This document shows positions 9,873 through 24,019 of a DNA stretch of 32,003 nucleotides, one piece after another. Each line of letters begins with the position of its first letter. Position 1 is the stretch's first letter. Below the pieces are notes generated by a model that saw only the letters and a list, made by a program, of their open reading frames with translations, had not been told where the DNA came from and made no database searches. Source of the DNA: Candidatus Peribacteria bacterium (GTDB lineage: Bacteria; Patescibacteriota; Gracilibacteria; UBA1369; 2-02-FULL-48-14). The position numbers were made by a program, and so were the translations under genes. The stretch is taken from the NCBI GenBank assembly GCA_943354505.1, contig CALRCE010000013.1:1-32003 (forward strand), read 5' to 3'.

Positions 9873-10382
9873 ATGAAAGTTGGAATCTATATCGACGGGG
9901 CGAATCTGTTTTACCAAGGCAAGCGCAGTGGGTGGCATCTTGATTACAAAAAATTCTATCGCTGGGTGGAGAAAGAAAATGAAATTGTGGTGGCGAAGTA
10001 TTTTATCGGTGAACCCTTTTGGGAACCTGCAATGAGCATCAATCGGGCATTCAACTCTTATTTGAGAAGAATTGGGTTTGCAATCATTTCAAAGCCTTTG
10101 AAAAGGCTGAAGTCAAAGACCGGCGGCGTTAAGAATAAGTGCAACTTCGATGTAGAGATCCACGACGAGATCATCCACGATCTGGACAAGCTGGATATGG
10201 TTTACCTAGCGAGTGGAGACAGCGATTTCATGAGGACTAAAGAGCGTGTTCTTTCCAAAGGCAAGAAAATCAAGTTCTTGGCTTATAAGTTGGGCTGCGC
10301 TTGGGAATTGAAACTCTCTTGGCATGTATTTCTGGATGACATCAAGGAGGAGGTGCAACGCGTAAAAACTATTGACGATTGA
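9873..10382 (+). CDS. NYN domain / DUF88 (LabA-like) putative PIN-fold RNase
   Basis: 169 aa; MKVGIYIDGANLFYQG ... DLDKLDMVYLASGDSDFMRTKERVLSKGKKIKFLAY, hallmark Asp residues of NYN proteins. Confidence 0.88.
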   Translation: MKVGIYIDGANLFYQGKRSGWHLDYKKFYRWVEKENEIVVAKYFIGEPFWEPAMSINRAFNSYLRRIGFAIISKPLKRLKSKTGGVKNKCNFDVEIHDEIIHDLDKLDMVYLASGDSDFMRTKERVLSKGKKIKFLAYKLGCAWELKLSWHVFLDDIKEEVQRVKTIDD

Positions 10383-21520: not shown

Positions 21521-22110
21521 AGTCTAACAGCCCTCGTTGGCATCTGACCAGCTTTGAGCTCTTGGATCAAGCGATGAATTTCCTCTTGAACGTTTTCTCT
21601 CTCTAGAAGGACTGTGAGTGCTCCTAGACTCTTTCCTTCTTTTAGTGCTTCTTCTGTGCCATCGTAGTCTTCTTCTTCGATTCGATATTTTTGTCCATTG
21701 TTGTCTTCTAAATGCGTGTAGGCTTCTCCTTGGGTCACAATGTAAAGAGACAAAATTCCACCTGTTGCTGGATTCTCTCGTGTAGACATTCCACATGCTT
21801 TCTCAAACACTGTTCTTGTGGGAGTTTCGTTGTAGCGAGTCCTTGGAACGTGAACCACAAATAAACCCAATCCTCCTTGATTCACCGCTAATCGAGTGGC
21901 TGCAAGACCGAGTTGGAATCTTCGTTCATGGTAACGGGAGTTGAGATGAGTCGTGTCTGCTCCAGCTCCTTTTAAAGCAGATTCGTAAGCTTGAAAACGA
22001 TACCCTGGAACGATTCCCGTAGGATGAAGAAGTCCACCGCTCGTTTTGAATCGTTCGAGAACCTCCTCTGGCTCTCCAAACTCCGCTCTCAAGTTGATTT
22101 CTCTCGACAT
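21517..22110 (-). CDS. hypothetical protein
   Basis: 197 aa ORF overlapping the start of the GNAT gene by 4 nt (coupled). No family recognised. Confidence 0.75.
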   Translation of the reverse strand: MSREINLRAEFGEPEEVLERFKTSGGLLHPTGIVPGYRFQAYESALKGAGADTTHLNSRYHERRFQLGLAATRLAVNQGGLGLFVVHVPRTRYNETPTRTVFEKACGMSTRENPATGGILSLYIVTQGEAYTHLEDNNGQKYRIEEEDYDGTEEALKEGKSLGALTVLLERENVQEEIHRLIQELKAGQMPTRAVRL

Positions 22111-22153
22111 ATCCCTTATAAGATAGTGGCCGACACTAACTCACATCAACGTT

Positions 22154-22228
22154 ATGTACAAGAAAAAGAAAATGGCTCTCCGCAAACGTCGCCAAAAGAA
22201 AGGAAAGAAGCTCAGCCTTCGCTACTAA
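22154..22228 (+). CDS. 24-aa highly basic microprotein, possibly a small ribosomal protein (AURKAIP1/bS22-like)
   Basis: ATG TAC AAG AAA AAG AAA ATG GCT ... TAC TAA = MYKKKKMALRKRRQKKGKKLSLRY; below the track's length cutoff. Confidence 0.45.
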   Translation: MYKKKKMALRKRRQKKGKKLSLRY

Positions 22229-22281
22229 TAGCTTTATCGCTGCGCAGTTTATTCACAATTGACTTAATTGACTTAAAAAAA

Positions 22282-22795
22282 GACCCCGCACTCGATCCAG
22301 GGCGACACTATATTATAAAGTGCGAGGATCAATGATGAGTGCAGGGTCAGTTTCGAGAAAGGTGACTAATTCTTTCTGTTTTTGTTTTTCATTTGCTGTA
22401 CTTTGGTCGACTTTAGGGCCGGACCAGGGCTACTTTTGGCGTGGAGTCGAAGTCGCTGTGCCGAAGCAGGGAACGAAGCGTGATCCACAAAGTGGAGGGT
22501 GAGAGGCTAACTCTCATGGGTGATCGCGTCGGGACCACCAGCGTAAAGCAAACGCCTTAATAGGTAACTTAACTTTTGGTTTTTCTTTTGGTATCGAGTT
22601 GTGAATGGGCGGGTGAATCTTCTTCTCTAGTAGCACTTCGCTTTCGCTTTGTGCCTAGGCGACGATTCATATCAATATACGTAGCCTTTGATTTTTCTTC
22701 AAGTTTCTAGGATGGACGACCGTGCAAGATTGTTGCATATTGACATATTTTAATCTGAATATAATGCACCTTTTCTTTAAAACTTTTTGCAATAA
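22282..22795 (+). ncRNA. candidate large structured ncRNA, copy 1 (strand inferred)
   Basis: 5' hairpin 22282-22348, then core 22371-22684 nearly identical to copy 2, many internal helices, no convincing ORF, tail ending ...TTGCAATAAAA. Confidence 0.6.
22371..22684 (+). repeat. direct repeat core, copy 1 (about 314 bp; partner 22888-23200)
   Basis: Shares TCTTTCTGTTTTTGTTTTTCATTTGCTGTACTTTGGTCGACTTTAGGGCCGGACCAGGGCTAC ... GACGATTCATATCAATATACGTAG with copy 2. Confidence 0.95.
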
Positions 22796-22797
22796 AA

Positions 22798-23305
22798 AAC
22801 CGGCCTCCCCCTCGAGCTCTCAGACGTAATAATATGACGCTGGGCTCTTTATGAGTTGAAGACCGGTTAGTGTGAAAGGCGATGAACTCTTTCTGTTTTT
22901 GTTTTTCATTTGCTGTACTTTGGTCGACTTTAGGGCCGGACCAGGGCTACCTTGAGCGTGGATGCAAGCCGCTGTGCCGAAGCAGGGAACGGAACGTGAT
23001 CCACAAGGTGGAGGATGAGAGTCTGAATCTCATGGGTGATCTAATCGAGACCACCAGCGTAAAGCAAACGCCTTAATAGGTGAACGAACTTTGTGTTTTT
23101 CTTTTGGTATCGAGTTGTGAATGAGCGAGTGAATCTTCTTCTCTAGTAGCACTTCGCTTTCGCTTCGTGCCTAGGCGACGATTCATATCAATATACGTAG
23201 GCATTTGAATTCGTGCAACTTTCTAAGATGGACATGAACTAAAAATTGTTTCACCGTGGACTAGTTTAATCTGGAGGCTCCCGACGATCCCCTTGCAATA
23301 AAATC
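22798..23305 (+). ncRNA. candidate large structured ncRNA, copy 2 (strand inferred)
   Basis: 5' hairpin 22798-22868 (AACCGG...CCGGTT), core 22888-23200, tail ending CCTTGCAATAAAA; lies between copy 1 and sdaAB. Confidence 0.6.
22888..23200 (+). repeat. direct repeat core, copy 2 (partner 22371-22684)
   Basis: Offset about 516-517 nt from copy 1, scattered substitutions and few indels. Confidence 0.95.
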
Positions 23306-23332: not shown

Positions 23333-24019
23333 ATGGGTCAATACACTCTCTTCGACATTGCGGGACCGATCATGGTTGGGCCCTCCAGCTCTCATACAGC
23401 AGGAGCCGCTAAGCTAGGACAGTTCGCGAGAGCCATTTTTGATGCGACCCCCACCAAGGTGCATTTTCTGCTGCACGGTTCTTTTGGCGAAGTTTACAAA
23501 GGACACGCCACGGATCGCGCTTTGCTCGGTGGAGTGATGAAATTCCCTCCAAATGATGCACGCATTAAAAACTCCTTTGAAATTGCGACTGAAAAAGGAC
23601 TGCATTTTTGTTTTGAACCTGGAAACATGGGGCCTCAATACCATCCCAATACCGTGAAGATCACCTTAGAAAACGAAGGGCGAAAAATGGATGTGGTGGG
23701 CTCTTCGATTGGAGGTGGAGCGATTGTGATCGATCAAATCAATGGTTTTGACGTGCACCTCACGGGGAACAGTGCTGAGCAGTACTTCACCCTTGTGATT
23801 CAGAACGAAAATCAACCTGGAATGCTGGCGAAGATCACTGGATTCTTGGGTAAAAAGAACATTCGCATTGTGAACATGCAGAGTTCCTTTCTTGCGTTTG
23901 AAAACAAGGTGCTTTCGGTGCTCAGCATTGAAAAAGCGCTGACGCTGGATGAACTTTTGGATCTGGAAAACGAAGAGGGCATCCTCTTCGTTCGTTCTCT
24001 TAATAAAATCGCCTCCTAA
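23333..24019 (+). CDS. sdaAB: L-serine ammonia-lyase, iron-sulfur-dependent, subunit beta
   Basis: 228 aa; LFDIAGPIMVGPSSSHTAGAAKLGQFAR ... VSS-type domain and C-terminal ACT domain VIQNENQPGMLAKITGFLGKKNIRIVNMQ. Confidence 0.95.
   Translation: MGQYTLFDIAGPIMVGPSSSHTAGAAKLGQFARAIFDATPTKVHFLLHGSFGEVYKGHATDRALLGGVMKFPPNDARIKNSFEIATEKGLHFCFEPGNMGPQYHPNTVKITLENEGRKMDVVGSSIGGGAIVIDQINGFDVHLTGNSAEQYFTLVIQNENQPGMLAKITGFLGKKNIRIVNMQSSFLAFENKVLSVLSIEKALTLDELLDLENEEGILFVRSLNKIAS

Follow-up and report, generated by a model that had tools for sequence, protein, structure and literature searches.

A predicted large structured RNA, encoded in tandem on the minus strand beside sdaAB, recurs across an order of Peregrinibacteria

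The window, the whole stretch of 32,003 nucleotides analysed here, carries two long repeats between a short open reading frame and the serine dehydratase beta gene sdaAB (23333..24019, plus strand; PF03315, 4.4e-12). The locus raises the question of what these repeats encode, in which direction they are read and to which known RNA, if any, their product is related. A previous sequence-only reading had taken them for an undescribed large structured noncoding RNA, transcribed from the plus strand and recently duplicated. Our analysis supports the structured RNA but places it on the other strand and gives the pair a different history.

Two tandem units predicted to be read away from sdaAB

A repeat search of the window confirmed the tandem pair of large elements. 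The units repeat every 516-517 nt at 88-92% identity, one repeat pair covering 268 nt (22450-22717 and 22966-23233; 88%, spacing 516) and the other 89 nt (22357-22445 and 22874-22962; 92%, spacing 517). The same search found weaker similarity in the tails of the units than in their cores, as had been noted before. In the ORF list of the window no reading frame of at least 80 amino acids lies inside the repeated cores, in agreement with the earlier impression that no convincing ORF covers the units, and the plus-strand ORF 21991-22335 overlaps copy 1 only at its terminator. sdaAB itself is a divergent neighbour outside the RNA. Just past the copy 1 terminator, on the strand opposite to the RNA, we also observed a 24-residue, extremely basic ORF (22154-22228, plus strand; MYKKKKMALRKRRQKKGKKLSLRY) with no Pfam match.

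The predicted transcripts are both on the minus strand. Copy 1 (22276..22668, 393 nt) would start at a G 6 nt past the -10 box and end in a U-tract after a hairpin of -30.8 kcal/mol; copy 2 (22794..23184, 391 nt) was delimited likewise by promoter and terminator prediction. Sigma70-type promoter sequences were found on the minus strand at 22674..22702 (TTGAAG-N17-TATATT) and 23190..23218 (TTGCAC-N17-TATATT), the stretch 23219-23305 being DNA upstream of the second promoter. Folding identified a hairpin followed by a T-run, that is an intrinsic terminator on the minus strand, at 22275..22348 for copy 1 and at 22794..22870 for copy 2, the latter ending in CCGGUUUUUU. An upstream hairpin described earlier was thus recovered as a hairpin, but its role is that of intrinsic terminator of the minus-strand RNA.

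The homologous loci described below allowed both signals to be compared between strands. Upstream of the RNA, and on its strand, 92/92 testable loci show a TTGnnn-N16-18-TAnnnT promoter, against 21/92 in the antisense control, and the predicted transcript start that follows it is conserved, mostly as NGA(A/T). A hairpin with T-run was present downstream in 83/92 loci and in 46/92 of the opposite-direction controls (upstream windows), which makes the terminator test the weaker of the two strand tests. Predicted RNA lengths across the homologues range from 331 to 708 nt, with a median of 435. The mismatches in the helix P1, which closes the core of the fold, point in the same direction: read as minus-strand RNA in the wider homologue set, P1 cells contain 143 G.U against 48 A.C. 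The strand could be told clearly from this asymmetry only with the wider set, since the eight sequences of the family alone were ambiguous (35 G.U against 22 A.C on plus, 15 against 22 without the P4 extension). A plus-strand model and its covariance model of the core, R1, gave weak matches in other families of the order, at loci showing the same motifs; R1 had found homologues but was later superseded by a minus-strand model, R2, built from 22 sequences, and many of the A.C mismatches of the plus-strand model are G.U pairs on minus. Most evidence favours the minus strand, and the plus-strand transcript of the sequence-only reading could not be upheld against the promoter, terminator and P1 results. 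We put the probability that the minus strand here truly encodes a structured RNA at about 97%.

This direction bears on the reading that the units are a plus-strand 5' leader or riboswitch of sdaAB, or another cis element tied to eno or sdaAB. The element does lie just upstream of sdaAB in its own family (f1) and in part of family f14, and regulation of this gene by serine would make sense. The RNA, however, runs away from sdaAB, has its own promoter and stops before the next gene; the G.U/A.C asymmetry points to minus; other homologues adjoin unrelated genes; and sdaAB appears to have a promoter of its own in the gap (TTGCAA-N17-CATAAT, recognised by eye, with similar sequences in G001 and G003). 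Because of the transcription away from sdaAB and the varied contexts, we regard a leader or riboswitch as highly improbable.

A covarying core with a pseudoknot

The eight family sequences share a core with 42 pairs, in which 90.3% of the cells pair and 14 pairs have changed on both sides. Core pairing fell to 37-47% when the partner strand was slid, and 0 of 500 shuffles matched it, the sequences being related and the shuffle counts therefore not to be read as probabilities. Because of this extent of pairing, the two-sided changes and the drop on sliding, the eight-sequence covariation establishes, at the level of sequence, a conserved structured RNA. Single-sequence folding gave z-scores of -2.58 and -2.49 for the transcripts of copies 1 and 2, and folding each transcript alone returned the 5' hairpin, the closing helix and the terminator in both.

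In copy 1 the core extends over 22391..22554 (minus strand; covariation, and R2 with E 2.1e-19), closed by P1 (UUUGCUUUAC / GUACAGCAAA), and in copy 2 over 22908..23070 (minus strand; R2, E 1.8e-19). P1 has about ten paired positions, most of them variable, and its covariation, like that of the pseudoknot described next, is seen across the class. Inside P1 the core contains the helices P2 and P3 and an H-type pseudoknot, which in copy 1 lies at 22405..22430 on the minus strand and consists of P4 (GGUC 22425-22422 / GACC 22408-22405) and the pairing PK (GCC 22430-22428 / GGC 22420-22418). In general form, a G(U/C)C upstream of GG pairs with a G(A/G)C within the P4 loop. Among the 79 sequences that could be parsed, the middle pair of PK is U-A in 53 and C-G in 25, with one mismatch, so that 78/79 pair; the third pair of P4 is UA in 31, CG in 22 and AU in 8 (61/79). 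Nine more sequences fell outside the parser, most of which fit by eye. Closing helix, pseudoknot and other helices appear from these alignments to covary strongly.

On the 5' side of the core, a terminal hairpin (GAAUC...GAUUC; 22614..22668 in copy 1, minus strand) starts at +1 and was present in the MFE and centroid structures of both copies. Its arms vary among genomes yet pair, for instance as GAAACG..CGUUUC or GAUUUC..GAAAUC. The 3' side is marked by an A-rich tract of the form AAA..CAAAA (22376..22390 in copy 1, minus strand; GAAAAACAAAAACAG). Such tracts were found 3' of the core in 65/93 homologues, against 1.9 in shuffles, and 5' of it in 48/93, against 4.5.

Covariation and folding show most of the helices proposed earlier from the letters to be real. 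The suspected long-range TTTGCT/AGCAAA pairing is P1 and covaries, TGGTC/GACCA is P4, GTGGA/TCCAC lies in P3, GTGAGAG/CTCTCAT forms a side hairpin, and GAATC/GATTC is the 5' hairpin of the transcript. The hairpin GCGT-aaagcaa-ACGC, on the other hand, is without conservation.

A contact is probable between the P2 loop and that of the hairpin 3' of the core. In copy 1 the P2 loop GAC (22528..22530, minus strand) would meet GUC in the 3' hairpin loop (22364-22366), and in copy 2 CGAU (23044..23047, minus strand) would meet AUCG (22880-22883), so that the two loops differ in concert between the copies. The general motif is UGACCA and variants in P2 facing UGGUCA and matching variants in the hairpin after the core, and covarying loop pairs occur in homologues from other families (UGACUA/UAGUCA, UAACUA/UAGUUA, UUACCA/UGGUAA). 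The mean match was 5.34 against 4.97 (sd 0.11) under permutation, a modest excess. The motif registers favour the contact as well, several of them being probably misassigned.

Such kissing-type complementarity, together with A-rich tracts on both sides of the core, could also belong to a self-assembling, RNA-only homo-oligomer held by loop-loop and A-minor A-tract contacts. Kissing loops and A-minor contacts occur in OLE, ROOL and GOLLD, which are large, stand-alone, ornate bacterial RNAs (PMC12286853). Their Rfam models, however, matched neither the units nor 16 homologous loci, no viral match was found, and sequence cannot separate an intramolecular from an intermolecular loop contact. The present RNA, known from sequence and located in Peregrinibacteria chromosomal contigs at the lengths given above, differs from them in these respects, and we consider a homo-oligomer of this style rather unlikely. 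The analogy drawn earlier with OLE, ROOL, GOLLD and raiA RNAs thus stands as an analogy of style, and not as family membership. The raiA motif RNA (ModT, RF03072) likewise stands alone, is structured with pseudoknots and is conserved throughout a broad lineage (PMC11706538). Its model gave no match in the window, the units or the 16 homologous loci, and the new RNA is longer and belongs to a different lineage.

Distribution, known RNA families and possible role

In the five other genomes of the family the element lies directly upstream of sdaAB (5/5), and downstream of eno wherever the contig extends that far. Beyond the family, R2 matched 68/89 genomes of the order, in 58/67 genera, each carrying one or two loci and many of them two, and gave weaker-scoring matches in fourteen genomes from other families of the class; the class-level homologues retrieved share this promoter and pseudoknot. 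In a sample of 380 genomes from across the phylum R2 had no match at E <= 0.01 outside its own order, which supports its specificity. When 84,980 species were scanned for an exact pattern, 31 stretches came up, nearly all of them assigned to Peregrinibacteria, Gracilibacteria or Patescibacteria. The labels Nitrospirota and Nitrospirae on at least two of them are probably wrong, these contigs agreeing in length with ones from genomes of the order (G065, G063). Within the order, family f13 gave no R2 match in 8/8 genomes (G017, G028, G035, G042, G047, G052, G057, G082) and one genus of f14 gave little signal, where the RNA has diverged, was lost or was missed by the model. The covarying structure therefore recurs in relatives; its description as lineage-specific was too narrow, since it covers the greater part of an order and reaches parts of further families in the class.

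At the homologous loci the gene upstream of the RNA is divergent and the downstream gene usually convergent, with varying neighbours that form a few recurrent sets. One of these is sdaAB-sdaAA, and sdaAB relatives make up the largest neighbour cluster (23 proteins). The others, named by eye, are what we take to be a CofE-like then a PurN-like gene with an MscS-like channel downstream, an exonuclease-like gene with carA, and a DUF881-like gene with a glutamate-racemase-like one. No functional partner emerges from the gene contexts of the homologous loci. The divergent and convergent flanks, the varied neighbours and the two loci per genome argue for an independent, trans-acting RNA. In many genomes of the order two unlinked paralogous loci are found (L076 and L105 in G011, for example) with different recurrent neighbours, which suggests two RNA subtypes.

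None of the known families accounted for this RNA. With Rfam 15 at the gathering score, the whole window contained only a tRNA, elsewhere; the two units gave chance matches far below threshold (GA-cis, sR35) and the 16 homologous loci none above it, so that the undescribed status was borne out. A literature search, with bioRxiv preprints outside its scope, turned up no account of an RNA like this from these bacteria. A ribozyme or mobile-element product would be conceivable from the compact pseudoknotted core and the tandem copies. It is improbable, however: no known ribozyme family matches, synteny is fixed in the family, no coding gene is carried, each genome has one to two loci, and no match to a virus, phage or plasmid was found. 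tmRNA and RNase P RNA resemble it as RNAs of 300-400 nt with pseudoknots; both identities are ruled out, as the genome's own copies lie elsewhere, on contigs C3 (120.7 bits) and C1 (145.4 bits) respectively. 6S RNA is alike in having its own promoter, a housekeeping-like distribution and paralogues, but is a rod with a bubble, unlike the branched pseudoknot core found here. No 6S model matched at the locus, and 6S occurs at other loci in 8/20 relatives, several of them also carrying the new RNA and none belonging to its own family, which excludes this identity too.

The small and large bacterial SRP RNA models matched nothing in 20 genomes (G000-G019), its own included, in searches whose controls missed B. 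subtilis; SRP RNA may have been lost or have strongly diverged in the order. Bacterial SRP RNA shares with the new RNA its wide presence in the lineage. If the new molecule were SRP RNA in strongly diverged form, or had replaced it in that role, its presence in most genomes of the order would fit. We nevertheless find this very doubtful. The search that missed B. subtilis with both models is imperfect, the helix 8 motif (GGAA/GNRA-type apex, AGCA internal loop) was found by pattern in 0/93 homologues, the covarying fold is a pseudoknot and not the SRP helix, and two loci per genome are common. Hfq, a protein that binds A-rich tracts, was not found in 30 relatives, which speaks against it as partner of the tracts.

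We therefore return to a stand-alone RNA. With its own predicted promoter and terminator, a covarying fold and no ORF, it has the features of a large stand-alone structured noncoding RNA, and recurrence of the structure with promoters and terminators, in the lack of any Rfam or sequence match, supports the earlier proposal of an undescribed one. Two genes would each give a minus-strand molecule made of the 5' hairpin from +1, the P1-closed core, A-rich single-stranded tracts, a second hairpin and an intrinsic terminator, which would work in trans as an intact folded molecule; its transcription, stability and trans role we infer from these features. Judging from anatomy and distribution, it would probably act as a ribonucleoprotein scaffold or as a regulator of a shared cellular machine, like 6S, SRP or raiA/ModT RNA, with the pseudoknot core as the surface that is recognised and the A-tracts as sites where a protein docks or A-minor packing occurs. 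More tentatively, it may be a large pseudoknotted housekeeping RNA at the core of a ribonucleoprotein, possibly making up for SRP RNA and Hfq, both apparently lacking; if so, such a class would be present in most genomes of a Peregrinibacteria order and in other families.

Large structured RNAs as a general kind are known, and the class appears new in the sense that model, sequence and literature searches found no relative, not as a demonstrated new mechanism. It is rare for a large structured RNA to be retained throughout an order, and among those whose role is understood several serve central machinery. The wide conservation within the order suggests that this one is probably important. Its hosts have small genomes, are mostly uncultured and have had their RNA biology explored hardly at all. 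The RNA has well-defined predicted ends, many homologues, a covariance model and strong support from covariation. It can be made in vitro and probed or imaged by cryo-EM at once, and partners can be sought.

History of the two copies

Each of the family genomes G002-G005 has one copy, and the sister species G001 has two, with two genes between them. The 3' parts of the present copies match their counterparts in the sister species (W1/G001a 86%, W2/G001b 93%) better than each other (73-76%). The 5' domains, in contrast, are 92% identical within this genome and 47-61% between genomes, as if homogenised within the genome by gene conversion. From this opposite behaviour of the two parts, the duplication is, as far as sequence comparison tells, older than the split from the sister species and was later homogenised; the recent tandem duplication assumed earlier is at odds with the closer match of the 3' parts across species. 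Between its two complete copies the sister species also has what looks like a piece of another copy's terminator (L014, about 10141-10194), surrounded by inserted genes, one of 472 and one of 163 amino acids.
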